NCBI GenBank assembly: GCA_021373115.1
Contig: JAJFTI010000016.1
Coordinates: forward strand, 17,819-81,818
Direction: 5' to 3'
Source of the DNA: Eubacteriales bacterium
GTDB taxonomy: Bacteria > Bacillota > Clostridia > Christensenellales > CAG-138
Length of the DNA stretch: 64,000 bases
Shown here: positions 40,051 through 58,716 of the stretch, piece by piece
Layout of the letters: every line of letters begins with the position of its first letter
Position numbering within the stretch: position 1 is the first letter of the stretch
Translations under genes and position numbers: made by a program
The notes under the pieces: generated by a model
What the model was told of the DNA's origin: nothing
The model's input: only the letters and a program-made list of their open reading frames with translations
Databases searched by the model: none

Positions 40051-41589
40051 ATGCCCGGGTATTTGATTGGCGTCGATATCGGGACACAAGGAACGAAAGC
40101 GGCGCTTTTTGACGAAGCGCTTGGTGTACGTGCGACGGCGTTTGAACCGTCCAGCCTTATTTCGCCGGAGCCAGGTACCGTTTGGCAGGAACCGGACGTG
40201 ATTTACGGATCCTGTGCAAACGTGATCCGGAGTATAATGGAGGAGTCCGGTGTGCGTCCGCAGGATGTTCTCGCCATCGGGTTGGACGGTCAGATGGCGG
40301 GTATTATGGGCGTGGACGAAAACGGCGAAGCGACCACATATTACGATTCATGGCTTGATATGCGTTGCGGAAAATACATGGATCAGATGCGACAAAAGGC
40401 TGGTCGGCGGATTATCGAAATCAGCGGCGGACCTGTCACATACATTCACGGACCGAAAATCCTTTGGTGGAAAAATGAGCACCCGGAAGCTTATAAAAAG
40501 ACAGCTTTTTTTGTTTTGCCGCATGCCTACGTGGTAGGAAAAATGACTGGCCTGCGCGGTGCAGAAATTTACTTCGATTATACACATCTGCATTTTTCCA
40601 CATTTGGCGATAATGCGAATAAATCCTGGTCCGAAGAGATGCTCGACTTGTTCGGCGTAGATCGCGCGAAAATGGCGCGCGTTGTATCCCCGTTTATGAT
40701 CGTGGGGAAGACCACCAAGGAGTTCGCCTCAATCAGCGGATTGATCGAGGGAATTCCGGTGTCAGCGGGCTGCGGCGATACGGCGGCGGGCACATTTGGG
40801 TCCGGTATGTTTGAAACTGGGCGTGTGCTGGACTGTGCCGGGACCGCATCCGTACTTTGCAGCGTCGTTGACGCGTATGTGCCGGATACGGCACACGAAA
40901 CAATGACCATGATGCGCAGCCCCATCGATGGGTTTTGGCTGCCGCTTGCATATATCAACGGCGGCGGTATGTGCGTACGTTGGTTTCGGGATACGCTTAC
41001 TGGAATACCATGCGCACAGTATGACGAACTGGAACGGGAGGCGGAACAAGTTCCGGTCGGCAGCGAAGGCGCCTTATTTATTCCGCATTTTTCCGGGCGC
41101 GTTCTGCCGAACAATCCAAATTTGAAGGGCAGTTTTTTAGGCTTGGATTTTAAACATACGCGGGGTTATCTCTATAGGGCGGTGATGGAATCGATCGCCT
41201 ACGAATACCGCTATTTTCTTTCGGTTCTGCGCGAATTATACCCCGAAGAGCGTTTCGAATGTTTGTCAGTGATTGGCGGCGGTGCGAAATCTGCGCTGTT
41301 TAACCAGATCAAGGCGGATGTGCTCGGCGTTGAAGTGAACACCTTCCAAACAGGCGAAACGGCGCTGATCGGGAGCGCCGTGATTGCAGGATACGGCGCG
41401 GGAGTGCTTGACGATTACCGCGCACCGATTCTCCGGGTTATGCAAAAAACGAGGGTATTTTTAGCCGAATGTCAAAACACCCAGCAATACCGTGTTTTTG
41501 CGGACGCATATCTTCTGGCGCTGGAACATCTGACGGGTTTCTATGCAGAAGAACTGCGCTTGCAGAAAGACGAAATGAAAATCAGATAG
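40051..41589 (+). CDS. FGGY family carbohydrate kinase (xylulokinase-like)
   Basis: A 512-residue sugar kinase. N-terminal phosphate loop DIGTQGTKAALFD, substrate region AIGLDGQMAGIMGVDENG and WLDMRCGKYMDQM, ATP-domain loop AGCGDTAAGTFGSGM, and C-terminal adenosine motif VIGGGAKSALFNQIKADVLG. It phosphorylates a sugar, ketose or polyol in the cytosol, with ATP. GGGGAGGAACC precedes the ATG. The DeoR regulator begins 11 nt after its stop, so the two are cotranscribed. Within FGGY it is nearest to xylulokinases by motif, but the true substrate likely is an unusual ketose or sugar acid derived from the local pathway. Confidence 0.92.
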   Translation: MPGYLIGVDIGTQGTKAALFDEALGVRATAFEPSSLISPEPGTVWQEPDVIYGSCANVIRSIMEESGVRPQDVLAIGLDGQMAGIMGVDENGEATTYYDSWLDMRCGKYMDQMRQKAGRRIIEISGGPVTYIHGPKILWWKNEHPEAYKKTAFFVLPHAYVVGKMTGLRGAEIYFDYTHLHFSTFGDNANKSWSEEMLDLFGVDRAKMARVVSPFMIVGKTTKEFASISGLIEGIPVSAGCGDTAAGTFGSGMFETGRVLDCAGTASVLCSVVDAYVPDTAHETMTMMRSPIDGFWLPLAYINGGGMCVRWFRDTLTGIPCAQYDELEREAEQVPVGSEGALFIPHFSGRVLPNNPNLKGSFLGLDFKHTRGYLYRAVMESIAYEYRYFLSVLRELYPEERFECLSVIGGGAKSALFNQIKADVLGVEVNTFQTGETALIGSAVIAGYGAGVLDDYRAPILRVMQKTRVFLAECQNTQQYRVFADAYLLALEHLTGFYAEELRLQKDEMKIR

Positions 41590-41600
41590 AGGATACGATT

Positions 41601-42395
41601 ATGGGCGAACAACAGGAAGTATTATTTGCGGAAGTCCGCAAACAGAACATTGTGGAAATGGTCAACGGAAAAGGCCGCGCAACCGTTGCGGAGCTTTGCA
41701 AGGAATTCAACGTGTCGTCCGCGACAATCCGAAACGACTTGCGCGAGTTGGAGGAAGCCGGCGCGTTGAAGCGTACGCACGGCGGCGCGATCAACAAACG
41801 CCGTGTTTCCTACGAGCTGAATACCTATGAAAAAGAGGTGCAAAACGTCAACCGGAAACGTGCAATCGCGCTTTCGGCGGTCGGATACGTGCATCCAGGC
41901 GATTCAATCGCAATCGACACGGGGACGACTACGTTTGAATTGGCGAAACTTTTGGGCAGTATCGCGGATCTTACCGTTGTGACAAACGATCTTCAGATAG
42001 CCGCCTATCTGGAGCGCAACACAAACGCCTATATAATTATGGCGGGTGGAGCGGTGCGCCGTCATTTCCATTGTACCGTGGGTGATTCGGCGATTAATAC
42101 GGTCAAGAATCTGCATGTGGACAAAGTGTTTATCGCTGCAAACGGTGTTCATATCAAAAAAGGCCTTACGACGCCGAATATGGATATGGCGTCGATTAAA
42201 ATGCAACTGATCGAGTGTGCAGACGAGGTGTTTGTTCTGGCAGATTCTTCCAAGATTAACACCAGCGCCTTTATCTCGTTTGCGCCGCTTTCGAGAGTAG
42301 ACGTGTTGATTATGGACGATGAAGCGGATCCGATGTATTTAAAAGAGATAAAAGCGATGGGCGTAGATGTGATTACCGCAGAAATCAAAAAATAA
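41601..42395 (+). CDS. DeoR family transcriptional regulator
   Basis: A 264-residue repressor: winged helix with RATVAELCKEFNVSSATIRN and LEEAGALKRTHGGA at residues about 22-62, then the DeoRC sensor domain (SIAIDTGTTTFELAKLL, TVVTNDLQIAAYL, ADSSKINTSAFISF), which binds a sugar phosphate. Start at 41601 follows AGAGGATACG; the frame is open further into the kinase gene but without a site. Directly after the kinase, it probably controls the kinase and the genes from 42481 on, its inducer being a phosphorylated intermediate. Confidence 0.93.
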   Translation: MGEQQEVLFAEVRKQNIVEMVNGKGRATVAELCKEFNVSSATIRNDLRELEEAGALKRTHGGAINKRRVSYELNTYEKEVQNVNRKRAIALSAVGYVHPGDSIAIDTGTTTFELAKLLGSIADLTVVTNDLQIAAYLERNTNAYIIMAGGAVRRHFHCTVGDSAINTVKNLHVDKVFIAANGVHIKKGLTTPNMDMASIKMQLIECADEVFVLADSSKINTSAFISFAPLSRVDVLIMDDEADPMYLKEIKAMGVDVITAEIKK

Positions 42396-42418
42396 TAAAA
42401 GTAAATAATAACAAACGA

Positions 42419-42447: not shown

Positions 42448-42480
42448 GATGACAGAAAATGGCGATCAAGGAGTTGCGGT

Positions 42481-43500
42481 ATGGGTAAAAATGATTTAGG
42501 AATTGCATTGATTGGAGCCGGCCGCGCCGGAATGATCCATGCGGAGAACTTCGCCCATCGGGTGGAGGGAGCGCGCATCGTCGCCGTTGTAGACGTTGTG
42601 GAAGAGAACGCAAAAAAATCTGCTGCGCTGTTGGATTGTGAAAAGTTCTACACGGACTATACGAATATATTGAACGACCCCTCCGTGCAGGCGGTGATGG
42701 TCGTTTCGCCAACCAACCTGCATAAACAGATCGTGATTGACTGCGCGAACGCAGGGAAACATATCTTCTGTGAAAAACCTATGGCTATGAATACTACGGA
42801 ATGCGACGAGATGATAGAGGCATGCCGGAAAAACCGTGTAAAGCTGCAAATCGGCTTTATGCGTCGGCATGACGAAAATTTTTGTCGCGCAAAGGAACTT
42901 GTCGAATCCGGCACGATCGGCGAGCTTGTTTTAATTCGCTCCAATACACGCGGACCGAGCAAGCCGCGCCCTTGGATGTATGACATAAAGAAATCCAACG
43001 GGATTCTCGCAGAGATCAACAGTCACGATATCGACAGTATTCGCTGGTTTGCGGGATCGGAAATTAAGCGCCTTTTCGCGGTTGCGGGTAATTACCGTAA
43101 CCCTGAGGTGGCTGCCGAATACCCGGATTATTATGATAATGTCGTGATGAACGGCGTATTTGAAAATGGGATTCAGTTTTCGATTGACGGCGCGGCTTAT
43201 GTAGAGTATGGGTATGATTCCAAGATGGAACTGGTCGGGACCAAGGGCGTTCTGCACATTGGCCGTAACGAAGGCGCCTTTCTTCGCTATGCCACGGCGG
43301 AAACCGGTATCTGCGAACCGTTTATCCAGAGTTGGATGACGCTTTTCAAAGATGCATATCTTGCCGAAGATAATTCGTTTGCCAGCTGTGTGCGGCGCGA
43401 TATGCAGCCGAAGGTAACCGGTGCCGACGGGCGCATGGCTGTACGCATTGTAGAAGCAGGAAATGAATCGATCTCGAGCGGCGGGATTGTCGAGTTATAG
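42481..43500 (+). CDS. Gfo/Idh/MocA family dehydrogenase (inositol 2-dehydrogenase-like)
   Basis: A 339-residue NAD-dependent dehydrogenase. Rossmann motif LIGAGRAGMIHAENF, signature GKHIFCEKPMAM with catalytic Lys, and catalytic Asp/His in LAEINSHDIDSIRWF. Overall it is most like inositol/scyllo-inositol dehydrogenases, which oxidise a ring hydroxyl to a ketone. CAAGGAG precedes the ATG. First gene of a long same-strand run that continues to the FucI-like isomerase; followed by a zinc dehydrogenase after 91 nt. Confidence 0.93.
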   Translation: MGKNDLGIALIGAGRAGMIHAENFAHRVEGARIVAVVDVVEENAKKSAALLDCEKFYTDYTNILNDPSVQAVMVVSPTNLHKQIVIDCANAGKHIFCEKPMAMNTTECDEMIEACRKNRVKLQIGFMRRHDENFCRAKELVESGTIGELVLIRSNTRGPSKPRPWMYDIKKSNGILAEINSHDIDSIRWFAGSEIKRLFAVAGNYRNPEVAAEYPDYYDNVVMNGVFENGIQFSIDGAAYVEYGYDSKMELVGTKGVLHIGRNEGAFLRYATAETGICEPFIQSWMTLFKDAYLAEDNSFASCVRRDMQPKVTGADGRMAVRIVEAGNESISSGGIVEL

Positions 43501-43591
43501 AAAAGCATGTGCCCATGTGTGCCGAAGGTGTACTATTGCCGGACATCGCCGGGATACGTCGCATATCTGACCGTAAAGGTAAGGAGAAAAA

Positions 43592-44629
43592 ATGAAAGCG
43601 CTGAAATTATTTGGGCCGAAGGACATCCGCCTTGTGGAAGTTGCCGTGCCCGAAATCGACGACAACGAAATTTTGCTGAAAACGGAAGCCGCGGCGATTT
43701 GCGGAACGGACATACGCATGTGGCAGAATGGTTGCCAGGGAGTGGACGAAACGCACCCGCTTACACTGGGGCATGAATTTTCGGGGGTGATTGAAGAGGT
43801 CGGGAAAAACGTTCCGTTCTATCAGCCCGGCATGGTGGTTGGTATGCAGCCGAATATCGGCTGCGGTATCTGCGATGCGTGCGTTGCGGGCAATTTTCAC
43901 CTTTGTGAAGATTACCGCGCGTTTGGCATCAATATGGATGGAGCGTTTGCCGAATACATAAAGATACCGTCGGAAGCGATTGTACGCGGCAATTTGGCTG
44001 TGCTTCCGAACGGAGTTTCCTGTGAAGAAGCCGCTGTCAACGAACCGCTCAGCTGCGCATATAACGGGTTTACCAAATGCAGCGTACAGCCTGGGGAACA
44101 CGCGCTGGTTGTCGGCGCGGGCCCAATCGGCGTGATGCACGCAAAGCTGCTGCACATGGCGGGGGCAATCGTTGCAATGAATGATCTTTCCGGCGAGCGT
44201 CTGGAGCAATGCAGATCTATTATGCCGTTCATTTCGACCTACTGCGGGGATGATCTGGCTGCGTTTACCAGGGAGTTTACGCTGGGTCGCGGGCTGGATA
44301 TCGCAATTACGGCCTGCCCGGTTCCTTCCGTACAGGCGGCTATGCTTCCGCTGATGAACTATGGCGGGCGCGTCAATTTCTTCGGCGGTATTCCCGAAGG
44401 GAAGCAGCCGGTTCCTATCAACACGAATTTTGTGCACTACAAAGAGCTTTTTCTAACCGGTTCAACGCGGTCCAGCATAGCGCAGTTTCGCAGGACACTG
44501 GGATTTATTTCACAGGGGCTGCTGGACATTCGCAGCGTGATTACCGATCGATATGCGTTGAACGATATTACAGATGCCTTTGAAAATGCACGTCAGGCAA
44601 AGGGAATCAAGCACCTTATCCATTTTTAA
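43592..44629 (+). CDS. Zinc-dependent alcohol/polyol dehydrogenase (MDR family)
   Basis: A 345-residue medium-chain dehydrogenase. Catalytic zinc ligands Cys37 (ICGTDIRMW), His and Glu in LGHEFSGVIEEVG; four structural-zinc cysteines in GCGICDACVAGNFHLC; NAD motif VVGAGPIGVMHAKLL (about residue 170). The family includes sorbitol, threonine and idonate dehydrogenases. Next to a phosphotriesterase-like lactonase it might oxidise a sugar at C1 to the lactone, or a polyol to a ketose. AAGGAG precedes the ATG; 29 nt to the next gene. Confidence 0.93.
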   Translation: MKALKLFGPKDIRLVEVAVPEIDDNEILLKTEAAAICGTDIRMWQNGCQGVDETHPLTLGHEFSGVIEEVGKNVPFYQPGMVVGMQPNIGCGICDACVAGNFHLCEDYRAFGINMDGAFAEYIKIPSEAIVRGNLAVLPNGVSCEEAAVNEPLSCAYNGFTKCSVQPGEHALVVGAGPIGVMHAKLLHMAGAIVAMNDLSGERLEQCRSIMPFISTYCGDDLAAFTREFTLGRGLDIAITACPVPSVQAAMLPLMNYGGRVNFFGGIPEGKQPVPINTNFVHYKELFLTGSTRSSIAQFRRTLGFISQGLLDIRSVITDRYALNDITDAFENARQAKGIKHLIHF

Positions 44630-44658: not shown

Positions 44659-45585
44659 ATGGTTAGAACGGTATTGGGCGACATTGCCGGGGACGTGCTT
44701 GGCCACACGCAGTGCCATGAGCATTTGTTCATTGAGAAAGGAACGTCGTTTGACTGTAACCCGGCGCTTTACATGGAGGACGAGGACCGGACTGTAGACG
44801 AGTTGCGAGCGTATGTACACGCGGGGGGCAAAAGCGTTGTGGACGCGCAGCCACCGTTCTGCGGAAGAATGGCAGAAAAGCTGGTGGCTGCTTCCATGCG
44901 TGCAAACGTGCATATCATTGCGGCGACCGGGGTTCACAAACGGCAGTTCTATCCGGCGGATGCGCCGATTCTGGCGATGACGCGCGAAGTGCTTGCCGAA
45001 TTCTTTGTTTCGGAATTGCGCGAAGGGATGATTTCCGAAAAGGGCGAACGGTTCGGCGCTTGCGCGGGTATTGTGAAAATTGCGTTTGAAAGCGACGGTT
45101 CGCTCGACGATCGATTAACGGATGCGGCGATTGATGCCGTCCTTGAAACCGGTGCGCCGTTGATGGTCCACACAGAAAAGAACTGCGGCGTGCTTCCGTT
45201 GATTAACCGTGCAGTTAGGCGAGGCGTTTCCGCCGAACGCGTGATCATTTGCCACATGGACCGGACGAGCCGGGAAATGGATGTCCATCGTGCGGTGCTG
45301 GAAACCGGCGCATATCTGGATTACGACAGTATCCATAGGTATAAATACCTTTCCGATGATGAAGAATTGGACATCATATGCAAAATGCTGGAATTCGACT
45401 ATGAAAAGCAGTTACTGCTGAGCCTGGATACGACGAACCGGCGCTTAAGAAGCTACGGCGGGGAAACGGGGCTCGATTATATACTGACTGTTTTTTTTCC
45501 AATGCTGCGCCTTCGCGGTGTCACCGAGGAACAACTTTTTATGATGAGCACAGAAAATCCGGCGGCAGCGCTTGCATTTCGGTAA
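44659..45585 (+). CDS. Phosphotriesterase-family metal hydrolase (likely sugar lactonase)
   Basis: A 308-residue amidohydrolase-superfamily member of the phosphotriesterase branch. Metal residues: His20 and His22 in GHTQCHEHLF, His in LMVHTEKN and in VIICHMDRTS, and Asp in LLSLDTTNRR. A Lys or Glu bridging position near residue 135 (GIVKIAFES, Lys) fits the carboxylated Lys. Relatives with natural substrates hydrolyse lactones or cyclic phosphates. Placed between a sugar dehydrogenase and an acid-handling set it is best read as a lactonase that opens the oxidised sugar. AGGGGAGGG precedes the ATG. Confidence 0.88.
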   Translation: MVRTVLGDIAGDVLGHTQCHEHLFIEKGTSFDCNPALYMEDEDRTVDELRAYVHAGGKSVVDAQPPFCGRMAEKLVAASMRANVHIIAATGVHKRQFYPADAPILAMTREVLAEFFVSELREGMISEKGERFGACAGIVKIAFESDGSLDDRLTDAAIDAVLETGAPLMVHTEKNCGVLPLINRAVRRGVSAERVIICHMDRTSREMDVHRAVLETGAYLDYDSIHRYKYLSDDEELDIICKMLEFDYEKQLLLSLDTTNRRLRSYGGETGLDYILTVFFPMLRLRGVTEEQLFMMSTENPAAALAFR

Positions 45586-45677: not shown

Positions 45678-46619
45678 GTGACATACAAAAGAGCCGATCG
45701 TCCAACCATGTACTTTATCGGCGTGACAACCGGGAAGTCGTCGATCATGCAAGTTTTTCCCAAATGGGTCGAAGCACTGGGCATAGATGCGGTCATCAAG
45801 GGCATGGATCTACCCATTCATGCCGAACCGGAGCTTTACCGCGAAGCGGTTTCGTTCATCAAGAACGATCCTCTTTCGCTTGGGGCATTGGTGACGACAC
45901 ATAAAATCGATCTGTATAACGCTGCTAAAGATTTGTTTGATTATATGGATCCATATGCGCAGCAGTTCGGAGAGCTCTCGTCCATTTCAAAGGGTGCGGA
46001 TGGGTCTTTGCGGGGGCACGCGAAGGATCCGATTACCTGCGGCATGGCGATGGAGGAATTTGTTCCGTCTGCGTATTGGACGGAGAACCCGAACGCCGGC
46101 GTAATGATTATGGGCGCAGGCGGCAGCGCAATCTCCATGTGCGCATATTACCTGCGAAAAGAATTTATCGGCAATCAACCACTTACGATAACAGTGTGCA
46201 ACCGCAGCAAACCACGCCTGGACGAACTGAAACACATCTGCGAAGCGCTCAATCCGGGCACGGTGAAAATGGAGTACTGCTTGACGCCGGAGCAGGGACA
46301 GAACGACAAGGTGCTTGCCGGCATGGCCACCGGATCGTTGATTATCAACGCAACGGGTCTCGGCAAGGACCGCCCCGGGTCGCCGCTGACGGACGACGCC
46401 GTGTTTCCACAAAAAGCGATGGTTTGGGAAATCAATTATCGCGGCGAGTTGAATTTCCTTCATCAGGCGCAGGCGCAGCAGGCCGCGCGCGAACTGAACG
46501 TTCAAAACGGTTGGATGTATTTCATTTATGGCTGGACGCAAGTCATGGCGGAAGTATTTCATCGCGAAATTCTAGGTGAAACGCTGAGAAAACTCAGTGA
46601 TATTGCCGCGGTCTGCTGA
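45678..46619 (+). CDS. AroE-like (shikimate/quinate dehydrogenase fold) oxidoreductase
   Basis: A 313-residue protein of the shikimate dehydrogenase family, but longer and divergent. The catalytic Lys is in VTTHK (Lys76) and the catalytic Asp in GHAKDP; the NADP motif is IMGAGGSAISMCAY, followed by INATGLGKDRPGSP and the C-terminal YGWTQVMAEVFH. GTG start 9 nt after AAAGGAG. No other aromatic-pathway gene is present, and the setting is sugar catabolism, so it probably acts on a cyclic polyol or a sugar acid rather than on shikimate. Coupled tightly to the cupin isomerase gene 17 nt downstream. Confidence 0.87.
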   Translation: MTYKRADRPTMYFIGVTTGKSSIMQVFPKWVEALGIDAVIKGMDLPIHAEPELYREAVSFIKNDPLSLGALVTTHKIDLYNAAKDLFDYMDPYAQQFGELSSISKGADGSLRGHAKDPITCGMAMEEFVPSAYWTENPNAGVMIMGAGGSAISMCAYYLRKEFIGNQPLTITVCNRSKPRLDELKHICEALNPGTVKMEYCLTPEQGQNDKVLAGMATGSLIINATGLGKDRPGSPLTDDAVFPQKAMVWEINYRGELNFLHQAQAQQAARELNVQNGWMYFIYGWTQVMAEVFHREILGETLRKLSDIAAVC

Positions 46620-46636: not shown

Positions 46637-47239
46637 ATGAAGGATTTTCATCCGAGCGGTACGCTGCTTGATTTTGAAAAAGGATGTGCCATTGATTTCA
46701 GCCTTAAAAACGGGCTTTCGGAAACGGTTGAAACCGGAAAACGATACCTGAGCCAGATGAAAAGCATGTTTGCCGACGACGCCGCATATGAGGCAGAACT
46801 GAAAAATGGCGATAAACTGGTTTATGAGTTTCACGGATTGCCCGTTCCGGAAACTGCCGGCGATTTGATGTATGGCTGCAGCATCGTTTATCCGGGCAAG
46901 GTCGGTAGCGAGTACCATATGACGAAAGGACACTTTCATACGATCCTGGAGACGGCCGAAGTTTATTACTGCATCCGGGGACAGGGTTATATGCTGCTGG
47001 AAAACCCCGAGGGGGATTGGCGCGCCATTGGGATGGAGCCCGGTAAGGCTGTATATGTGCCGAAACGATACGCGCATCGCAGTATCAATGTTGGCCAGGA
47101 CGAACCGTTGATCACGTTTTTTGTGTTCCGCGCGGATGCGGGACACGACTATGGCACGATTGAAACAAAAGGATACCGTAAGTTGCTTGTCGAACAAAAC
47201 GGGGAGCCCGCGGTGATCGACAACCCGAAATGGAAGTGA
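46637..47239 (+). CDS. Cupin-type phosphoglucose isomerase family protein
   Basis: A 200-residue cupin of the archaeal/bacterial glucose-6-phosphate isomerase family. Metal-binding motif is SEYHMTKGHFHTILETAEVYY (two His, one Glu) and the later His is in PKRYAHRSINV; the conserved GQGYMLLENPEGDW sits between. It isomerises an aldose phosphate to the ketose phosphate. AAAGGAGAG precedes the ATG. Main metabolism normally uses the other type of isomerase, so this copy is probably dedicated to the local pathway. Confidence 0.9.
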   Translation: MKDFHPSGTLLDFEKGCAIDFSLKNGLSETVETGKRYLSQMKSMFADDAAYEAELKNGDKLVYEFHGLPVPETAGDLMYGCSIVYPGKVGSEYHMTKGHFHTILETAEVYYCIRGQGYMLLENPEGDWRAIGMEPGKAVYVPKRYAHRSINVGQDEPLITFFVFRADAGHDYGTIETKGYRKLLVEQNGEPAVIDNPKWK

Positions 47240-47245: not shown

Positions 47246-48199
47246 ATGAAGCTGCTGGTTACGCCGACTTCGTTTGGAAAACCGGAAAATGAGAAAGCAC
47301 GCGTGCTGCTTGAGTCGTTTGCGGACGAAATCGTCTATAACGATACCGGCGCTCCCTTGAGCGGCGGGGATTTACTCAGAAAGCTGGACGGTGTGGACGG
47401 CTATATTGCTGGGCTGGATTATATTACGGCGGACGTGGTCGAAAACATGCCTTCCTCTGTCCGCGTTATCTCGCGTTATGGCGCGGGAGTTGATCGTGTG
47501 GACATTGCCGCCTGCACGCGCCGCGGCATCAAAGTGACCAATACGCCCGGAGCGAACGCAACAGCGGTTTGTGAGCTGGCATTCGGACTGATGCTTTGTG
47601 CGGCGCGGAATATTCCGGCGCTGCATTCCGCGGTGGAATGCGGAGAATGGCCGCGCAGTACGGGTATGGAACTCTCCGGCAAGACGTTTGGTATTATCGG
47701 ATTGGGTGCGATCGGAAAAAAGCTAGCCCTTCGTGCAAAAGCGTTTGAAATGCAGGTGCTTGCGTACGACTTGTTCCTTGACGGTGCGTTTGCGGCAGAA
47801 AACGGAATTGAACCGCGCGAGCTGGACGATCTGCTTGCGGAAGCCGACGTGGTCTCTCTGCATGTTCCTCTGACCGCAGAAACCCGGCATATGATTAACG
47901 CGGAGAGGATTTCGCACATGAAGCGCGGAGCGATTGTAATCAACACCGCGCGCGGCGGCCTGATTGACGAAGAAGCCGCCGCGTCCGCGCTGAGAAGCGG
48001 GCAACTTCGCGGGATGGGGCTCGACGCGTTCGAGCAGGAACCGCTGGTGAAATCCCCGCTGGCCGGTCTTGATGGCGTTGTGTTTACGCCGCATACGGGT
48101 GCGCATACCGCAGAGGCTGTTACCGCAATGGGCGTTATGGCGGTCGAGAATGCGATTGCCGTGCTGAAAGGGCAGCAGACGGCACACATATTGAACTGA
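47246..48199 (+). CDS. D-isomer specific 2-hydroxyacid dehydrogenase (SerA-like)
   Basis: A 317-residue NAD-dependent dehydrogenase. NAD motif FGIIGLGAIGKKLALRAKAF, the Arg of the substrate site in INTARGGLIDEEA, Glu in FEQEPL and catalytic His in FTPHTGAHT. Similar to 3-phosphoglycerate dehydrogenases. It interconverts a 2-hydroxyacid and a 2-oxoacid; following the lactonase this could oxidise a sugar acid or reduce a pathway 2-oxoacid. Only 6 nt separate it from the cupin gene. Confidence 0.93.
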   Translation: MKLLVTPTSFGKPENEKARVLLESFADEIVYNDTGAPLSGGDLLRKLDGVDGYIAGLDYITADVVENMPSSVRVISRYGAGVDRVDIAACTRRGIKVTNTPGANATAVCELAFGLMLCAARNIPALHSAVECGEWPRSTGMELSGKTFGIIGLGAIGKKLALRAKAFEMQVLAYDLFLDGAFAAENGIEPRELDDLLAEADVVSLHVPLTAETRHMINAERISHMKRGAIVINTARGGLIDEEAAASALRSGQLRGMGLDAFEQEPLVKSPLAGLDGVVFTPHTGAHTAEAVTAMGVMAVENAIAVLKGQQTAHILN

Positions 48200-50604: not shown

Positions 50605-51498
50605 ATGAGAAAGAAAATTCTTTCCAACCAAAGGACGACTAGAATAGAAACCATTTCTTTCACAGCGCCAGCGATGATTATGGTTGTGATTACTACATAT
50701 ATTCCTTTTGCACTCAGCATTGTTTACTCTGTAACAAATTGGAAGGGGCTCGCCGATAAAGCGACGTTTGTTGGACTTGATAACTTCATTAAAATATTTG
50801 CCAGCGATCCGGATTTCATGCAATCCGCCTTGTTCACGATACGGTACTCTGTGGCATTTGTCGTACTCTCCAATATTCTGGCTCTCGCATTGGCGGTCAT
50901 TCTAGCGAGAAAAATGAAGTTTGCGAGCTTTTTTCGTGCCGTGTTTTTTGTGCCCTATGTAGTAAGTATGACAATCGTTGGATTCATATGGGAATTCATC
51001 TTCACGCAGGGATTTTCGAGTCTATATAAGGTGCTGGGATGGGGGTTTTTAAATCTCAGCTGGCTTGGATCGCAGAATCTTGTTTACTATGGCGTTGTAC
51101 TGGTCGGAATCTGGCAGGCACTCGGGTTTTACATGGTTCTATACATCGCTGGGCTTAAGACCATTCCCAATGACGTCCTGGAGGCTGCGGAGATCGATGG
51201 AGCGAGCACGATTGGACGGTTCTTCCAAGTAAAACTGCCATTGCTTATCCCGTCCATAACAACTTGCCTGCTGATGTCCATTATCAACTCCTTACAGGTT
51301 TTCGACACGATTATGGCAATGACAAAGGGTGGTCCGGGCATTGCATCGATGAGCTTGACTTTGAATATCTATCAGGATGCATTTATTTACCACCGCTATG
51401 GGATTGCCTCGGCGAAAGCTGTAGTCTTCTTTATCATGATTTTGCTGCTGACGAAGGTGATCCTGAATGCTTTGGGCCGGAAGGAGGTTGATTACTGA
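50605..51498 (+). CDS. Carbohydrate ABC transporter permease, MalF type (CUT1)
   Basis: A 297-residue permease with six membrane helices and EAA loop VLEAAEIDGASTIGRFFQVKLP. GGAGG lies a few bases before the ATG. First gene of an importer operon ordered permease, permease, binding protein; the next permease starts within its stop codon (TGATG). No ATPase is encoded, as in the CUT1 operon at 6282-9498. Confidence 0.94.
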   Translation: MRKKILSNQRTTRIETISFTAPAMIMVVITTYIPFALSIVYSVTNWKGLADKATFVGLDNFIKIFASDPDFMQSALFTIRYSVAFVVLSNILALALAVILARKMKFASFFRAVFFVPYVVSMTIVGFIWEFIFTQGFSSLYKVLGWGFLNLSWLGSQNLVYYGVVLVGIWQALGFYMVLYIAGLKTIPNDVLEAAEIDGASTIGRFFQVKLPLLIPSITTCLLMSIINSLQVFDTIMAMTKGGPGIASMSLTLNIYQDAFIYHRYGIASAKAVVFFIMILLLTKVILNALGRKEVDY

Positions 51499-52370
51499 TG
51501 ACTTCTGTCTCAAAGAAAAAGCATTCCTTTGGACGCAACAAGCGGACAAAACTTGCTAATACGATTCTTCAAATCCTGTTATTATTCGTCAGCGCGGTGT
51601 ATTTTTACCCGATTATTTTAATGTGCATCAACGCGGTAAAATCCCGCAGGGAAATGGCACTAAGCGTACTGACGCTGCCCAAGAAAATCATCTGGAGCAA
51701 TATTGCATACGTATTTAATGACATAGACTACCTGACTTTGTTTAGAAACACGATGGTTGTGACCGTTATCGGTGTTGTTGGGATTGTTTCAATTTCATCG
51801 ATTGCAGCTTACATGTTAAGTCGTAGAAGCACCACAAGGTATGCGAAAGTAACGCGCGCCGTGCTGATTGCGCCAATGCTAATCCCGTTCCAGACGTTTA
51901 TGGTGACGCTTTTAAAGGTAATGATGGGGTTACACTTAACCGGCTCCATATGGGGACTGGGGATCCAATACTGGGGATTTGGCGTCCCAATGGCGGTATT
52001 CATCTATTATAACTTCATGAAAACGGTCCCGAAGGAGATCGATGAAAGTGCAAAGATCGATGGAGCGTCAACATTGCGTTCATTTGTCAGCATCATCTTT
52101 CCGCTTTTACGGCCGGTTACGATCACGATCATTGTGCTCAATGTTATGTGGATTTGGAACGACTTTGTTCTGCCGCTGCTGATGGTCAACTCCAGATCCT
52201 CCACACGTACTTTGGTGCTTGGGGCATACGGTTACATCGGACAATTTGTGACGCAGTGGGATTACGCTCTATGTGCCATGGCAATGGCTGCAATCCCGTC
52301 GATTATCGTATTTTTGATACTACAAAAGTACATCGTGGATGGCGTCGTCGCGGGTTCAATCAAGGGCTAG
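51498..52370 (+). CDS. Carbohydrate ABC transporter permease, MalG type (CUT1)
   Basis: A 290-residue permease with six membrane helices and EAA loop EIDESAKIDGASTLRSFVSIIFP; the ending IVDGVVAGSIKG is the usual C-terminus of MalG-type subunits. Its ATG shares a base with the stop of the preceding gene. Forms the sugar channel with that subunit, serving the lipoprotein that follows after 56 nt. Confidence 0.94.
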   Translation: MTSVSKKKHSFGRNKRTKLANTILQILLLFVSAVYFYPIILMCINAVKSRREMALSVLTLPKKIIWSNIAYVFNDIDYLTLFRNTMVVTVIGVVGIVSISSIAAYMLSRRSTTRYAKVTRAVLIAPMLIPFQTFMVTLLKVMMGLHLTGSIWGLGIQYWGFGVPMAVFIYYNFMKTVPKEIDESAKIDGASTLRSFVSIIFPLLRPVTITIIVLNVMWIWNDFVLPLLMVNSRSSTRTLVLGAYGYIGQFVTQWDYALCAMAMAAIPSIIVFLILQKYIVDGVVAGSIKG

Positions 52371-52426: not shown

Positions 52427-53668
52427 ATGAAACGAAAGAGATGTTTGTATGCACTTCTAGCGCTCATCTTGGCTTTTACTGCCTTAAGCGGCTGTAAAGC
52501 GAACGAACAAACTGAGATCTACATGTTCCTAGGCAGCCCCGAATTCAAAGAGCCGACGCAGGCATTGTGCGACGAATACATGAAATTGAACCCGGGCGTG
52601 AAGATCGTTTTTGAAACATCTTCAGATTATATGTCCATGTTCCAAGCAAAGATCAACACGGGTGAATTGCCGGACATCTTCTTTGTGCCAACAGGACTTG
52701 AGCTGAAGAATTACGAACAATTCTGTTATGATCTTTCCGATCAACCTCTTGCAAGCGCGCTCACGGATTCCGCAAAAGCGAGCTTGAGCTACGGTGACAA
52801 GCTTTGCGGTTTTGCCCAAGCTTGCGATCTGTTTGGCTTAATCTACAACATGGATATTTTGTCAGAATGCGGGATCACGAAAGTACCAGAAACAAACGAA
52901 GAGATGACTGCGCTTTGCGAAGCGGTTTCCGCCAAGGGATATAATGTGTTTACGACCGGTTATAAAGAACTCTGGGTTTGGAAACACGTCCTTCAGCCAT
53001 ATTTGAACATGACCGGCGAACCCGCTTATGACACTTTCTCCAAAATTGGTTCGGGAGAGAAAACAATGGCGGATTACTCAAGTCTGTATAACGATTTCTT
53101 CAATTTCGTCGACTTAACGCTCCAGTACAGCGGAACCAAACCCCTCGAATGTGGATTCGATGCTGAAATTTCCGAAATGGCAGCCGGAAAGACAGCAGTC
53201 ATGATCGGTCAGGGCTCTTGGGCAGAAGGCGAAATTCTAAGAACAGCCCCGGATTTCAATCTCGGCTTTGGTGGATACCCGGTCAGCAGCAACGCGAGCG
53301 ACTGTAAGGTTGTGCTGGGTACAAGCCAGGCAATCTGCGTATGGAAGGATTCCAAGGTACGTCAGGCGGCCCTTGACTTTGCAAATTGGTGGAATACTTC
53401 CGATTATGGCAAATCGTGGTACGCGGATGTGATCATCACGTATCCGCCCATCAAGGACGCGAAATTCCCGACCTCGAACCTGAATAACGACGCTATGAAG
53501 TCAATTGACGAAAAGGGAGCCGGTCGGATGTCGTGTTATGATATTCCTGTGGCATTTACCGACGCTGCGCTTGGTCAAGTAATGCAGGTTTATGCAGCGG
53601 GTGATATTACGAAAGATGAAGCCTGCACACAACTTCAGGGAAAAATCGGAGAATTTCTGAACGATTAA
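52427..53668 (+). CDS. Sugar-binding lipoprotein (CUT1 family 1)
   Basis: A 413-residue binding protein: signal peptide MKRKRCLYALLALILAF with lipobox ALSGC, then the family 1 fold (MKLNPGVKIVFETSSDYMSMF, LYNDFFNFVDLTLQY, AAGKTAVMIGQGSWAEG). AAAGGAGAG precedes the ATG. It captures a glycoside outside the cell for the two permeases upstream. A large hairpin follows at 53702. The GH4 glycosidase at 56253 is the likely user of the imported ligand. Confidence 0.94.
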   Translation: MKRKRCLYALLALILAFTALSGCKANEQTEIYMFLGSPEFKEPTQALCDEYMKLNPGVKIVFETSSDYMSMFQAKINTGELPDIFFVPTGLELKNYEQFCYDLSDQPLASALTDSAKASLSYGDKLCGFAQACDLFGLIYNMDILSECGITKVPETNEEMTALCEAVSAKGYNVFTTGYKELWVWKHVLQPYLNMTGEPAYDTFSKIGSGEKTMADYSSLYNDFFNFVDLTLQYSGTKPLECGFDAEISEMAAGKTAVMIGQGSWAEGEILRTAPDFNLGFGGYPVSSNASDCKVVLGTSQAICVWKDSKVRQAALDFANWWNTSDYGKSWYADVIITYPPIKDAKFPTSNLNNDAMKSIDEKGAGRMSCYDIPVAFTDAALGQVMQVYAAGDITKDEACTQLQGKIGEFLND

Positions 53669-53799: not shown

Positions 53800-54714
53800 A
53801 TGAATGAACTCTCGGCTTTTGAAATGCTGGAAACGGCCATCAAGGATATTCAGAGCCATTTCGATACGAGTTGGCTTTTTATCGATGCGCCCTGGAATAC
53901 GCGTTCTTATGATCTCATCGAATCCATTCCGGCAGCGAGGAAAAATGCTCCATATAGCGAACTGCAGCGGCATTCGCACTGGGAGATGTCCGTTCTACTA
54001 TCGGGGGAGAATGCACTTCGTGTTGATGAAAAGGTATTTCCTTTACATAAACGTGAGGTAGCGATTATACCGCCGGGCACCCTTCATCAAGACCTTCCCT
54101 ATGCTGATAAAGAAAGCCTGACTCTTTGGATTGTACTTGAGCCTGGAAATGTAAGTCTGCACTTTGCCGGTATCGATCTATCCGGAGCCTTTTTTGCGGT
54201 CGGCCATGTATGGCCCGATTTTGATATTTCTTATTCAAACCATCACTTGCAGGCAATCCAAAACGAACTATACAGCGGTGTCGATTCGTGGTCGGAATTA
54301 ATTGTAAAAGCAGAAGTGCTTGCAATGCTTGTGATGACACTCAAGTATATGATGCCGGACAATTTAATACCAAATTATTGTAATTGGCAAGAGAAATTGG
54401 TTGGGATGATCACAAAGCATATTGAAAACAGCAATGGTGAGAAGTTGGTTTTAGGTGATATTGCTCAACATTTTGGCTTGAGCGTGAATTACATGAGCAC
54501 GATATTTAAAACAAAAACCGGTAAGACGATTGCTACGTATGCGCAGGAGCATCGAATTTATGTAGCGAAGGAAATGCTTTACAATACCGCATTCAGCATA
54601 AAAGAAATTGCGAATACGTTGGGATATTACGATCAGTACCATTTTTCAAAAGGATTTAAAAAGAGCGTCGGTGTCTCTCCAAAGGCGTTTCGGGAAAAAG
54701 GTAGGTTCATTTAG
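53800..54714 (+). CDS. AraC family transcriptional regulator with cupin sensor domain
   Basis: A 304-residue regulator. Residues about 45-130 form an AraC-type cupin (HSHWEMSVLLSGENALRVDE, VAIIPPGTLHQDLPY), which binds the sugar signal; residues about 205-300 hold two helix-turn-helix motifs (LGDIAQHFGLSVNYMSTIFK and SIKEIANTLGYYDQYHFSKGF). AAAGGGA lies upstream of the ATG. It probably activates the preceding CUT1 operon and the downstream DegT/GH4/Gfo genes when the glycoside is present. Confidence 0.92.
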   Translation: MNELSAFEMLETAIKDIQSHFDTSWLFIDAPWNTRSYDLIESIPAARKNAPYSELQRHSHWEMSVLLSGENALRVDEKVFPLHKREVAIIPPGTLHQDLPYADKESLTLWIVLEPGNVSLHFAGIDLSGAFFAVGHVWPDFDISYSNHHLQAIQNELYSGVDSWSELIVKAEVLAMLVMTLKYMMPDNLIPNYCNWQEKLVGMITKHIENSNGEKLVLGDIAQHFGLSVNYMSTIFKTKTGKTIATYAQEHRIYVAKEMLYNTAFSIKEIANTLGYYDQYHFSKGFKKSVGVSPKAFREKGRFI

Positions 54715-54872: not shown

Positions 54873-56147
54873 ATGAAGAAACTTGCAGCATTAGGTGGAA
54901 AAATTACTGGAACTTTAAACACACCAAGTTGGCCGATCTTTGATCAACGCGATATCGACTACGTAGGCGAAGCGGTTAAAAGCGGCATATGGGCGTTTCG
55001 CGGGCCTATCGAAAAAGAATTCGAAGAGAAATGGGCGGTTTATTCAGGCGCGAAGTACGGGATTGCTTGTACGAATGGAACGCACGCGATTCGGATGGCG
55101 TTGGAAGCGCTGGGGATTGGACCAGGTGACGAAGTCATCGTACCGGCGCTTACATGGCAGGCGACGGCGGCATCCGTTCTGGACGTGAATGCAATTCCCA
55201 TTTTAGTGGATATTGATCCAACGACTTATACGATTGATCCGAAAATGGTTGAAAAGGCAATAACGCCTCGCACAAAATGTATTATTCCGGTACACCTGTA
55301 TTGCAGACTTGCGGATATGGACGCAATCATGTCGATCGCAAAAAAATATAATCTTTATGTTGTGGAAGACTGTTCTCATTCGCACGGATCCAAATGGCGT
55401 GGTAAGGGCGTTGGTACGATCGGCGATATCGGCGCGTTCAGCTTGCAGGCGTCCAAACTGCTGAATACTGGCGATGGCGGCATTCTGAGCACAAATTGCG
55501 AACGCTACCGTGACCTGCTGCAATCCCTGAAAATCTGCGGGCGTCCCAGCTACGAAGGGGCACCTTCCATTCAAAGCGGGAATTTCAGGATGACGGATCT
55601 GCAAGCCGCTCTCGGCGTAACACAATTGGAGAAACTGCCCGAACAGAATGATCATCGGCTTAAGAACATGCTGCGGTTGGAACAAGCGCTGGCAGGTTTG
55701 GATTGCATCGAAATACTGCGTAAACCCGAAGGGATAACGTATCAGGCAGCATATAATTATTCATTCAAATATATCAGCGAAAAAGCACACGGGATTGAGC
55801 GGGATGTTTTTCTGCGGGCATTACGCGCCGAGCTCGGTCAGTCCGATGAAAAGAACATGTTCTATAGGACATATATTCCACTTACGGATAGCCCGCTCTA
55901 CCGGCCTTTTAGCAAGCATACCCACAAGATTTCAGACGAGTATTGCAAGGCAATCGATCCCGCGCGCTTCCATACTCCCGAAGCGAACAAGGCGTATTAC
56001 AAGGAAGGCGTAAACTTCATTCACTACGTTCTTCTCGGGCCGGCGTCGGATATGGACATCCTGTCCGACGCAATCATCAAGGTATGTACCCATCTTGATG
56101 AGCTGAAAGAAGTATCTGCGGCAGCCGGGCTTGGCAAAGAAGGCTGA
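54873..56147 (+). CDS. DegT/DnrJ/EryC1/StrS family aminotransferase
   Basis: A 424-residue PLP sugar aminotransferase, or a near relative. Seen: ACTNGTHAIRMALEALGIGPGDEVIVPALTW region split over the cofactor pocket, DIDPTTYTIDP, VVEDCSHSHGS (Asp for the pyridine nitrogen) and the PLP Lys in SLQASKLLNTGDGG (near residue 202). Family members aminate a keto group of a sugar or cyclitol (NtdA for 3-keto-glucose-6-P, StsC and BtrS for inosose); in catabolism the reverse reaction is possible. CGGAGG precedes the ATG. Together with a Gfo/Idh enzyme downstream it recalls the NtdA/NtdC pair. Confidence 0.9.
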   Translation: MKKLAALGGKITGTLNTPSWPIFDQRDIDYVGEAVKSGIWAFRGPIEKEFEEKWAVYSGAKYGIACTNGTHAIRMALEALGIGPGDEVIVPALTWQATAASVLDVNAIPILVDIDPTTYTIDPKMVEKAITPRTKCIIPVHLYCRLADMDAIMSIAKKYNLYVVEDCSHSHGSKWRGKGVGTIGDIGAFSLQASKLLNTGDGGILSTNCERYRDLLQSLKICGRPSYEGAPSIQSGNFRMTDLQAALGVTQLEKLPEQNDHRLKNMLRLEQALAGLDCIEILRKPEGITYQAAYNYSFKYISEKAHGIERDVFLRALRAELGQSDEKNMFYRTYIPLTDSPLYRPFSKHTHKISDEYCKAIDPARFHTPEANKAYYKEGVNFIHYVLLGPASDMDILSDAIIKVCTHLDELKEVSAAAGLGKEG

Positions 56148-56252: not shown

Positions 56253-57623
56253 ATGAAACCGATTATTGTTCTGTTGGGAGCGGGAAGCGCTTCGTTCACA
56301 ATTTCAATAACGAAAGACCTGATCTTGAGTGATGGACTGAAAGAATGCACATTCCGTTTAATGGATATTGACCCTTCCAGGCTGGAAGAGGGAAGGAGCG
56401 CGGCGGAAAGCTACATTCAGTCAACGAAGTCGCGTATCACGATTGAAACATACATAGATCGTCGGGAAGCGCTCAAAGGTGCGGATTATGTGATCTGCGC
56501 GGTGAAAATCGGCGGTTATGGCCCGCTTGAAGCGGAACGGAAGATTGCAGAAGAGCACGGCTATTATCGTGGGATTGGAGACCGCGTTTCATGTTATTTC
56601 GGCGGGATTGGCGCATACTGGCAGATTCGGTTTTTCGAAGATGTTGCAAAAGACATGGAAGACGTCTGCCCCAATGCCCTGTTGGTTCAAACCGCTAATC
56701 CCGTGTTTGATGGAACCAATTATCTGACTCGCTATCGCAATATTCGTGCGGTAGGAGTTTGTCACGGACATTTTGAAGCGTTTAAAATTGCGGATATCCT
56801 TGGGCTGGAGCGGGACAAGGTTACGGTTGAAGTAGTAGGTTTTAACCACCACGTGTATTTGACGGATTTCAGATATAAAGGAATGGATGCATACCCGCTG
56901 ATTGACAAGTGGATTGCGGAAAAAAGCGAGGATTATTGGAAGGGAGTAGAATACAATACGCCCGGACCACTCAAGTTCGCTCCGGATTCCCTGTCGCCTG
57001 GTACGATTGACGCATATAAATACTATGGATTGCTGCCGATTGGCGACGCAATTCGAAGCGCGTCTCCCTGGTGGCACCATACGGATTTTCAAACGAAGGA
57101 AAGATGGTACGGGATCAATGGCGGGTTTGATTCCGAGATCTGCTGGGCGGAGTATTTGAGGCAAAAGGACGTCCACCATAAAAAAATCCATGATACGCTC
57201 GCGATGGGAAAATCGATTACCGAGGCTTACCCGCTCGAGCTGAGCGGGGAACAGCATATTCCATTAATCAACGCCATGGTAACGGACCAGTACCAGCACT
57301 TTACTTTGAATATACCAAATAACGGCTGCGTGCCGGGCATCCCGGATGACGTGATGGTAGAGATACCAACGCAAGTGAGCGGTTGTGGAATTCGAGGGAT
57401 TCGGGTACGTCCGTTGCCAAGGCGGCTGATGGATAATGTGATCTATCCGCGAATTCGTACTTTGGATAATTTACACGATGCGTATCGCTATGGCGATCGA
57501 TCACTGCTGGTACTTGAACTGATGCAGGACCATCGCACGCGTTCGCTGGAGCAGGCGGAAACACTGATTGATACTCTGCTTGCGCAACCGTGGAATTCGG
57601 ATGCGGAAAAACATTATCGTTGA
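56253..57623 (+). CDS. Glycoside hydrolase family 4 (NAD+/metal-dependent glycosidase)
   Basis: A 456-residue GH4 enzyme. NAD motif VLLGAGSASFT at the N-terminus; metal Cys170 and His171 in VGVCHGHFEAF (most members have CHS); NPVFDGTNYLTRY and VGFNHHVYLTDF with the second metal His. GH4 enzymes cleave glycosides by transient oxidation at C3, with NAD+ and Mn2+, and so accept both alpha and beta bonds and unusual sugars. Cytosolic. AAGGAG precedes the ATG. It is the likely hydrolase for the ligand of the CUT1 importer upstream. Specificity (galactoside, glucoside, glucuronide) cannot be read with confidence. Confidence 0.92.
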   Translation: MKPIIVLLGAGSASFTISITKDLILSDGLKECTFRLMDIDPSRLEEGRSAAESYIQSTKSRITIETYIDRREALKGADYVICAVKIGGYGPLEAERKIAEEHGYYRGIGDRVSCYFGGIGAYWQIRFFEDVAKDMEDVCPNALLVQTANPVFDGTNYLTRYRNIRAVGVCHGHFEAFKIADILGLERDKVTVEVVGFNHHVYLTDFRYKGMDAYPLIDKWIAEKSEDYWKGVEYNTPGPLKFAPDSLSPGTIDAYKYYGLLPIGDAIRSASPWWHHTDFQTKERWYGINGGFDSEICWAEYLRQKDVHHKKIHDTLAMGKSITEAYPLELSGEQHIPLINAMVTDQYQHFTLNIPNNGCVPGIPDDVMVEIPTQVSGCGIRGIRVRPLPRRLMDNVIYPRIRTLDNLHDAYRYGDRSLLVLELMQDHRTRSLEQAETLIDTLLAQPWNSDAEKHYR

Positions 57624-57642
57624 GTAAACGGGAGAAGCAACC

Positions 57643-58716
57643 ATGGACATTTGCGTAGGGATGATTGGCTGCGGCGGGATTGCGACCGCAAAACATATGC
57701 CCGGCCTAGTCAAAGCCGGCGCGAAAATCACCGCGCTTTATGACGTGAATCAAAAGAGCGCGCAGGATGCCGCTCAAAAATTTGGTACGGACGCGGTCGT
57801 TTATGAAACGGTGGATGCGTTACTAGCCAATAAAGAAATCACGGCCGTACATATCTGCACACCGAACAAAACGCATGCCGACTTAGCTGTGCGCGCGATG
57901 CAGGCAGGGAAGCATGTCATGTGTGAAAAGCCCATGGCGATGAACGCGATTGAAGCAGCGCGTATGCTTGAAGTTAGCCGGAATACCAATAGAAAGCTCA
58001 CGATTGGTTACCAAGGCAGGTTTCGTAAAGAAGTGCAGTTGCTGAAGGAAATGTGCATGAGCGATCAACTTGGGGAGATTTATTTCGCTCGAGCACACGC
58101 ACTGCGCCGCAGAGGCGTTCCAACGTGGGGCGTCTATCAAGACAGTTCGCTGCAGGGAGGCGGATGCTTAATTGATATCGGGACGCATGCGTTGGATCTC
58201 GTTTTGTGGCTGATGGATAATTACGAACCCGAATACGTTATTGGCAATACATACCGCAAGATTATTGACCGGCCGACGGATGCTAATGTTTGGGGAACAT
58301 GGAATTCCGCTCTGCTCAACGTAGAGGATTCGGCGTTTGCGATGTTGCGCATGAAGAACGGCGCAACGGTCGAGCTGGAGTGCAGCTGGGCAATTAACTG
58401 CCGTAATGCGGTTGAAAGCAATGTTACGCTGGCTGGAACGAAAGCCGGAGCAGATACGATTAAAGGATTGAAAATCAACGGAGCGTCTGGCGGAAGCTTG
58501 TATATTAACGATATCGATACGAATAATAAATCCGGGACGAGCTTTGATGTTGTTAATATAGACGATCCTGGAAGCAAGGAGATTGCAGTCTGGGTCGATG
58601 CAATCAAGAATGATCGGCCGCCGCTTGTTTTGCCGGAGCAGGCGTTGATGGTTGCTCGTATTATTGATGGAATATACGAATCGTCAAAAACCGGCAGACC
58701 GGTGAATTTCGATTAA
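57643..58716 (+). CDS. Gfo/Idh/MocA family oxidoreductase
   Basis: A 357-residue NAD(P)-dependent oxidoreductase. Rossmann motif MIGCGGIATAKHMPG, signature GKHVMCEKPMAMN with catalytic Lys, and GGGCLIDIGTHALDLVLWLM with Asp and His. Third family member in the window, 20 nt after the GH4 gene and in the same operon. Working next to a C3-oxidising glycosidase and a DegT aminotransferase, it might oxidise or reduce C3 of a free or phosphorylated hexose, like NtdC (inference). Confidence 0.93.
   Translation: MDICVGMIGCGGIATAKHMPGLVKAGAKITALYDVNQKSAQDAAQKFGTDAVVYETVDALLANKEITAVHICTPNKTHADLAVRAMQAGKHVMCEKPMAMNAIEAARMLEVSRNTNRKLTIGYQGRFRKEVQLLKEMCMSDQLGEIYFARAHALRRRGVPTWGVYQDSSLQGGGCLIDIGTHALDLVLWLMDNYEPEYVIGNTYRKIIDRPTDANVWGTWNSALLNVEDSAFAMLRMKNGATVELECSWAINCRNAVESNVTLAGTKAGADTIKGLKINGASGGSLYINDIDTNNKSGTSFDVVNIDDPGSKEIAVWVDAIKNDRPPLVLPEQALMVARIIDGIYESSKTGRPVNFD

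Follow-up and report, generated by a model that had tools for sequence, protein, structure and literature searches.

Positions 40051–58716 of a 64,000-nucleotide stretch of DNA from a Eubacteriales bacterium (contig JAJFTI010000016.1 of assembly GCA_021373115.1; the whole stretch is called the window here) carry 17 intact open reading frames, all on the + strand. An earlier reading of the letters (the original prediction) had interpreted them as one large catabolic cluster for sugar acids and glycosides. The genes it named and their order are borne out by the open reading frames and by family assignments made with NCBIfam models over all 17 genes and with Pfam over the first ten. Two gene starts required attention: that of the DeoR gene was corrected to 41601, and the isomerase gene described as FucI-like most likely begins at 49017 (443 aa) instead of 48852. 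The cluster is made up of two parts. The first (40051–50348) bears a core consisting of an FGGY kinase, a phosphotriesterase-family hydrolase (PTE), an AroE-like dehydrogenase, a cupin-type phosphoglucose isomerase (PGI), a D-2-hydroxyacid dehydrogenase (HADH) and a KDPG-type aldolase, while the second holds an importer, an AraC regulator, a DegT aminotransferase, a GH4 glycosidase and a second Gfo/Idh dehydrogenase. The source genome is 2.9 Mb in 39 contigs and 89% complete, and the bacterium probably falls in the order that includes Christensenella.

Neighbors of the core were counted around AroE-like genes, which served as bait in a search of species-representative genomes. The counts are based on the 80 best loci out of 579 or more, with the window's own locus (L081) excluded. 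Open reading frames were clustered, families were counted within 10 kb, and each family was named from one representative or by BLAST to the window genes. HADH was the most frequent neighbor (65 of 80 loci), followed by PGI (62), PTE (53), FGGY kinases (45) and the aldolase (42). HADH, PGI, PTE and the aldolase were all present in 33 loci, at least three of them in 50, and none in 7, five of which are shorter than 9 kb. By a rough estimate, a single-copy gene would fall by chance in a 20-kb stretch of a 3–4 Mb genome about 0.5 times per 80 loci, compared with 62 for the cupin PGI, bearing in mind that the loci are not independent. Fisher tests uncorrected for relatedness associated the aldolase with PTE (p=1.6e-5), the aldolase with HADH (7.8e-5) and PTE with HADH (4.3e-6) over all 80 loci; these values are inflated by short contigs and relatedness, and they became 0.013, 0.0037 and 0.038, respectively, when only loci of 15 kb or more (52) were considered. 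The order found in the window (FGGY, DeoR, Gfo/Idh, zinc dehydrogenase, PTE, AroE-like, PGI, HADH, aldolase and, later, the isomerase) recurs in two Christensenella-group genomes (L007 and L117).

Besides its many occurrences in Firmicutes, the core was also found on plasmids. Fifteen plasmid records encode the AroE-like protein, 14 from Alphaproteobacteria and one from Paraburkholderia, with rhizobia and Shinella among the hosts; several are closely related, so that this number overstates the independent cases. PGI, an FGGY match (24–32% identical to the window kinase) and a metallo-beta-lactamase-fold hydrolase (MBL) accompany the AroE-like gene in all 15, HADH in 14 and the aldolase in 10. 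PTE is found in none, its place being occupied by MBL. Conversely, a search of the 80 genome loci at E 1e-5 detected no MBL relative. The same gene set thus comes with two unrelated metal hydrolases, and the core keeps together across phyla while its gene order is reshuffled and its hydrolase and kinase types are swapped. We are highly confident that it is a genuine co-inherited set, and the earlier proposal that kinase, PTE, AroE-like enzyme, cupin, HADH and aldolase belong together is supported. Four loci (L018, L014, L025 and L063) share the five-gene order AroE-like, PGI, PTE, aldolase, HADH in an operon without Gfo/Idh, and their feeder genes differ.

Table 1. Genes of the cluster and mobile-element pieces at its edges. 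Positions are those of the window.
Feature	Position	Strand	Basis
FGGY kinase, xylulokinase-like, predicted ketose kinase	40051..41589	+	XylB model 285 bits vs cut-off 380; Pfam FGGY_N/C
DeoR-family repressor	41601..42395	+	Pfam DeoRC and HTH_DeoR; start from sequence
Gfo/Idh dehydrogenase 1, inositol-dehydrogenase-like, predicted feeder	42481..43500	+	IolG model 285 bits vs cut-off 355; best PDB chain 3ezy
Zinc-dependent dehydrogenase, Tdh/IolM-like, predicted feeder	43592..44629	+	Tdh 194–197 bits, IolM 182 bits vs cut-off 450; all below cut-off
PTE, predicted phospho-lactonase	44659..45585	+	Pfam PTE; best PDB 3msr/3ovg; phospho-furanose lactonase model below cut-off
AroE-like dehydrogenase, core enzyme, predicted sugar(-phosphate) dehydrogenase	45678..46619	+	AroE fold of predicted model; without Pfam match
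Cupin-type PGI	46637..47239	+	Pfam GPI 111 bits vs 20.7
HADH, phosphoglycerate dehydrogenase/glyoxylate reductase group	47246..48199	+	Pfam 2-Hacid_dh; best PDB 1wwk, 5aov
KHG/KDPG-type aldolase	48272..48916	+	above cut-offs of NF005119 (277 vs 238 bits) and TIGR01182
Isomerase of arabinose/fucose isomerase fold	49017..50348	+	443-aa relatives; Foldseek to AraA/FucI
CUT1 ABC permease 1	50605..51498	+	NCBIfam UgpA-like, below cut-off
CUT1 ABC permease 2	51498..52370	+	NCBIfam GlcU/UgpE-like, below cut-off
Sugar-binding protein of ABC importer	52427..53668	+	weak match to carbohydrate SBP (substrate-binding protein) models
AraC-family regulator	53800..54714	+	NCBIfam AraC-type matches
DegT-family aminotransferase	54873..56147	+	276/275 bits to 5w71/2c7t, 2-deoxy-scyllo-inosose aminotransferases
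GH4 glycosidase, AglA-like	56253..57623	+	330 bits to 1obb AglA; CHGH motif in both
Gfo/Idh dehydrogenase 2	57643..58716	+	IolG model 122 bits, below cut-off
IS3-type transposase remnant	39696..39845	+	inverted vs IS3 gene 58794–59618; 143 nt at 86%, 50 aa at 82%
IS3-family transposase, downstream edge	58794..59618	-	NF033516 above cut-off

Pfam gives no match for the AroE-like protein, which scores 34–37 bits against AroE models, with 34 bits to the equivalog TIGR00507 for a cut-off of 200. Its predicted structure (pLDDT 94) nevertheless has the AroE fold by Foldseek. In an alignment to 1nvt, the catalytic-type Lys and Asp correspond to K76 and D117, K116 stands in place of the Thr before the Asp, and S101 in place of the Asn in the GAVNT motif. 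We take the equivalents of K76 and D117 to be the catalytic Lys-Asp dyad of AroE, and the roles of the GAVNT Asn and of the Thr are likewise assumed. K76, S101, K116 and D117 are invariant in 56 AroE-like sequences as well as in the window together with 15 proteobacterial sequences. By fold and dyad the protein belongs to the AroE family, and it falls outside the shikimate dehydrogenase equivalog. Among the fold matches of the model are the 5-ketofructose reductases of Gluconobacter and Tatumella (7cok and 7col), which provide a precedent for an AroE fold working on a sugar and not on shikimate, although they are only 15–17% identical in structural alignment and their substrate, according to an excerpt of PMC7954740, is an unphosphorylated diketose. 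One natural protein (P0065) has the AroE-like and PGI sequences fused, which points to neighboring steps. The family comprises at least 7,992 database proteins at E <= 0.001, the far end of which may hold other AroE-type proteins, and its distribution is patchy, with the gene present in 10 of 201 relatives at E <= 1e-40. Where records name the family at all, the label "shikimate dehydrogenase" is likely wrong. Establishing what the AroE-like enzyme does would put a frequent misannotation right, and it might bring to light a general path by which rare sugars, polyols or cyclitols are used. The enzyme is no simple replacement for a missing glucose-6-phosphate dehydrogenase (G6PDH), since G6PDH is absent from 13 of 24 carriers searched, the source genome being one of the 24, and present in the other 11. 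The carriers in this and the other genome-wide searches were chosen by hand and non-randomly, and two of them (G132 and G202) are apparently one genome counted twice. In annotated plasmid records (L122–L128 and L130) the AroE-like protein is named shikimate dehydrogenase, and the genes around it encode sugar kinases (FGGY or other), sugar ABC importers and dehydrogenases of the polyol type.

Conserved residues were counted in length-filtered sequences (58 of 62 for PGI, 44 of 53 for PTE, 39 of 42 for the aldolase and 62 of 65 for HADH) plus the window's own. In the aldolase, E43 and K133, presumably the catalytic residues, are invariant in 40 sequences. The cupin PGI matches the archaeal structures 1j3p and 4lta with 193 bits over residues 16–200 of 200. 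Three of its four metal ligands (H99, H101, E108 and H147) are kept in 59 of 59 sequences and the fourth in 58. These ligands and the proton-transfer residues His158 and Tyr152 are named for the Pyrococcus furiosus enzyme in an excerpt of PMC6627849, whose numbering was transferred by hand from an alignment to solved structures. By its four metal ligands and its match to Pfam GPI the protein thus counts as a cupin PGI, although the full proton-transfer pair is not kept. A housekeeping role was considered for it and set aside: the classic PGI (PF00342) is present in 23 of 24 carriers, the source genome included, so the cupin probably serves this pathway. It likely acts on some other ketose phosphate, either instead of fructose-6-phosphate or in addition to it.

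Both hydrolase types offer leads to a phosphorylated lactone. In PTE, the residues H20, H22, K140, H171, H199 and D257, which we take to be metal ligands, are invariant in 45 sequences, and the protein scores 144 bits against the phospho-furanose lactonase model NF045706, short of its cut-off of 630. The MBL enzyme is matched best by a general metal-dependent hydrolase model (54 bits) and weakly by L-ascorbate-6-phosphate lactonase (29 bits), both below cut-off. Because the two leads converge, we place phosphorylation before lactone opening. On the kinase side, FGGY and PfkB kinases are mutually exclusive (0 of 80 loci with both, p=0.005) and NagB occurs in 6 of the loci, which argues for entry as a ketose phosphate. 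Two loci (L019 and L020) have a glucosamine-6-phosphate deaminase-like gene in the operon before a GntR or HADH gene, a hint of entry as an amino sugar phosphate.

The first part of the window's cluster also contains predicted feeder enzymes. Gfo/Idh dehydrogenase 1 marks a sub-type of the locus: 12 of the 13 loci that have it carry one kinase type (FGGYb), and the 7 loci that have a FucI-kind isomerase all contain it. For the window's own isomerase, which had been called FucI-like, no Pfam, NCBIfam or PDB sequence match was found, while its predicted structure (pLDDT 86) does have the arabinose/fucose isomerase fold (Foldseek E 1e-18, TM 0.71, 13% identity).

The original prediction had also remarked that a dehydratase needed for a classic route is missing. 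None is a regular neighbor of the core: no dehydratase was found among the representatives of recurrent neighbor families in the 80 loci, nor among the 25 commonest of 92 families formed by 80 further neighbor frames, which were hand-picked from the nearest 148 of 306 unassigned frames within 7 kb. Genome-wide, the dehydratase search covered the ILVD_EDD family in the carriers, with L013 left out here and in the glycerate kinase search. The single copy in the source genome, an assembly 89% complete, is IlvD by NCBIfam (780 bits vs 618, compared with 270 vs 708 for Edd). The genome G014, which is 95% complete, has no ILVD_EDD gene even though HADH, AroE-like, PGI, PTE and aldolase genes are all present. 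The gap is therefore probably no oversight. Measured against the Entner-Doudoroff pathway, the core has the KDPG-type aldolase and lacks the dehydratase, as far as the ILVD_EDD family is concerned.

What might such a core do? We tentatively propose, as a possibility that is far from assured, that it cleaves an unusual ketose oxidatively, through phosphorylated intermediates and without a dehydratase, each substrate and product and the order of the steps being inferred. The FGGY kinase would phosphorylate the ketose, and the cupin PGI would convert the ketose phosphate to an aldose phosphate, which the AroE-like enzyme would oxidize to a lactone phosphate. PTE, or MBL in proteobacteria, would open the lactone to an aldonate phosphate, and HADH would oxidize this sugar acid at C2. 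The resulting 2-keto-aldonate phosphate would still have its C3 hydroxyl, and the KDPG-type aldolase would cut it to glyceraldehyde-3-phosphate and hydroxypyruvate. The appeal of the scheme is that, if HADH oxidizes C2, the aldolase could split a 3-hydroxy-2-keto-acid to hydroxypyruvate, and the five genes would correspond to five steps. In this window, the feeder dehydrogenases and the isomerase probably produce the ketose to be phosphorylated from a rare sugar or (amino)cyclitol that the cell imports, and the downstream importer, GH4 enzyme and aminotransferase probably form a separate module that widens the substrate range. The earlier order of oxidation to a lactone, hydrolysis, isomerization and phosphorylation is probably wrong; phosphorylation and isomerization likely come first, because the cupin keeps PGI residues and distant relatives of both hydrolase types act on phosphorylated lactones.

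Several observations count against this scheme. The aldolase is absent from 38 of the 80 genome loci and 5 of the 15 plasmid loci. The window itself is of the Gfo/Idh type, and of the 13 loci of this type just one has the aldolase within reach. PTE is absent from 27 of 80 loci, a gap filled neither by MBL nor by an SMP30 lactonase, which was tried as a substitute and rejected (p=1). PGI co-occurs with HADH and with the aldolase little or no more often than its own high frequency would give (p 0.03–0.7). Although the PGI family keeps His158 in 59 of 59 sequences, the position of Tyr152 is Phe in 51 of 59. Carriers other than those described above have one to three ILVD_EDD copies, several of them two or three. 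The only exception encountered to the lack of a neighboring dehydratase is Marinovum, whose locus has a dehydratase-like gene at a distance of 3.5 kb on the opposite strand. Glycerate kinase was considered as a marker of hydroxypyruvate formation and found not to discriminate: it is present in 21 of 22 carriers searched, but 115 of 201 relatives have it too, including 8 of the 10 that carry the AroE-like gene, and it was not found in the 80 loci. Since it is common anyway and lies outside the loci, it lends no support to hydroxypyruvate as a product. Finally, as far as an excerpt of PMC7954740 goes, the characterized AroE-fold sugar enzyme acts on its diketose and not at C1 of an aldose phosphate, and a putative shikimate dehydrogenase of C. 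pasteurianum was inactive on that diketose.

Other readings account for parts of the same evidence. The AroE-like enzyme could instead reduce a diketo sugar or cyclitol: the Gfo/Idh and zinc dehydrogenases would oxidize a carbon, the AroE-like enzyme would reduce it again with other stereochemistry, and a rare sugar would reach glycolysis through the kinase and PGI. This agrees with the membership of the 5-ketofructose reductases in the AroE family and with the joint travel of Gfo/Idh, FGGYb and AroE-like genes, mostly without the aldolase. We nonetheless find it doubtful, as the hydrolase, HADH and aldolase, which are among the commonest neighbors, would go unexplained, and as the operons at L018 and L014 hold the AroE-like enzyme and HADH as their only dehydrogenases. 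Unlikely as well is an inositol route of the Thermotoga kind, in which two dehydrogenases would yield a diketo-inositol, PTE would cleave the ring, and the keto-hexonate would be converted to a KDPG-like acid. The T. maritima pathway, reportedly described by Rodionova in 2013 and cited in PMC12632266 and PMC3750489, is said to involve IolG, IolM, IolN and IolO, with a hydrolase step and a KDPG-type aldolase and without AroE-like, PGI or FGGY proteins. The likeness lies in the related Gfo/Idh and zinc dehydrogenases, the latter with 182 bits to IolM, and in the hydrolase and aldolase. In addition, the nearest PDB entry to Gfo/Idh 1 is 3ezy, titled only "dehydrogenase", which we take to be a Thermotoga enzyme; DegT is nearest to inosose aminotransferases; and no IolE was found above cut-off in the source genome. 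On the other hand, the two dehydrogenases fall short of the cut-offs for IolG (285 vs 355 bits) and IolM (182 vs 450) and so do not qualify as orthologs, no IolO match was found among the window genes, and Gfo/Idh accompanies the bait in 13 of 80 loci compared with 53 for PTE, so that PTE is not tied to an inositol step.

Conventional Entner-Doudoroff chemistry seems to us quite improbable. It would have an unlinked dehydratase act on the aldonate phosphate, the aldolase release pyruvate, and HADH merely recycle NADH. The aldolase does pass KDPG aldolase cut-offs, many carriers have two to three ILVD_EDD copies, and there is the Marinovum gene to consider. Yet of the ILVD_EDD family the source genome shows only IlvD and G014 no member, the recurrent neighbors in the 80 loci include no dehydratase, and HADH is a more constant partner than the aldolase. 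Least credible of all, and in our judgment very improbable, is a pile-up of mixed-use sugar genes by mobile elements. The cluster does have an IS3 gene on one side and an inverted remnant of such a gene on the other, and its second half was not found to be conserved, but its core stays together across phyla through changes of order, hydrolase and kinase.

The proposed ketose-splitting route resembles the Entner-Doudoroff pathway and its semi-phosphorylated variants in its predicted oxidation via a lactone to a phosphorylated sugar acid, which a KDPG-type aldolase splits into two C3 units. It differs in having HADH and no dehydratase as a neighbor, an AroE-like enzyme in place of G6PDH, a cupin PGI, and PTE or MBL as lactonase. 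The L-glucose/L-galactose pathway of Luteolibacter LG18 likewise oxidizes a rare sugar with dehydrogenases and ends in a KDPG aldolase; it includes the dehydratase LguB and the KDG kinase LguH, and AroE-like, PGI and PTE proteins are not named in the excerpt of PMC12632266. No description of the cluster or pathway was found in the literature searched. The suggestion of an unfamiliar pathway stands for the core and is not supported for the 17 genes as a unit. A bolder extension would make the core a widespread new branch of metabolism, a dehydratase-free counterpart of Entner-Doudoroff with an AroE-descended sugar-phosphate 1-dehydrogenase and a KDPG-type aldolase that splits 2-keto-aldonate-6-phosphate to hydroxypyruvate and glyceraldehyde-3-phosphate, in which host-specific feeders bring many rare sugars, polyols and cyclitols to one ketose-phosphate hub. 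We regard this as speculative and rather unlikely in its full form.

The second part of the cluster does not share the conservation of the first. The importer, AraC, DegT, GH4 and second Gfo/Idh genes are not among the recurrent neighbors of the core in the 80 loci, where CUT1 permeases occur in 8 with 24–32% identity. Among 391 genomes of the class, a close GH4 relative (E <= 1e-130) was found in the source genome only, and the DegT search of 60 relatives peaked at about 190 bits (38% identical) compared with 976 for the gene itself. Three database proteins, the AroE-like P0029, the isomerase P0155 and the GH4 enzyme P0262, have a longest contig of identical length (61892), a hint that GH4 and core genes may share a contig elsewhere. 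The idea that all 17 genes form one unit is thus not borne out, and since GH4 and DegT were not found conserved with the core, to include oxidative deglycosylation in this pathway is a guess. The GH4 protein has the catalytic Cys-His motif of the AglA type (CHGH, as in 1obb). An alternative role as an alpha-glucuronidase, which would have fitted a glucuronosyl-inositol substrate, was dropped because motif and best match are those of AglA. MosB is a member of the DegT family. Together with IolG it converts myo-inositol to scyllo-inosamine in rhizopine formation, a precedent for a DegT and Gfo/Idh pair, albeit a biosynthetic one in the excerpt of PMC6668481. Our guess, held with low confidence, is that the second part is a separate module that releases and deaminates an (amino)cyclitol or amino sugar glycoside.

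The whole cluster is bracketed by the IS3 gene downstream and, just upstream of the kinase, an inverted related remnant of about 150 bp. Outside these pieces, short direct repeats flank it at 37547–37933 and 61295–61504 (81–91% identity over 94–146 nt). Elsewhere in the window, Pfam matches identify a ribose-type ABC importer (permease, ATPase and binding protein) at 16362–19971 and, at 21712–29626, an oligopeptide-type ABC importer, after which come an amidohydrolase and a further Gfo/Idh dehydrogenase.

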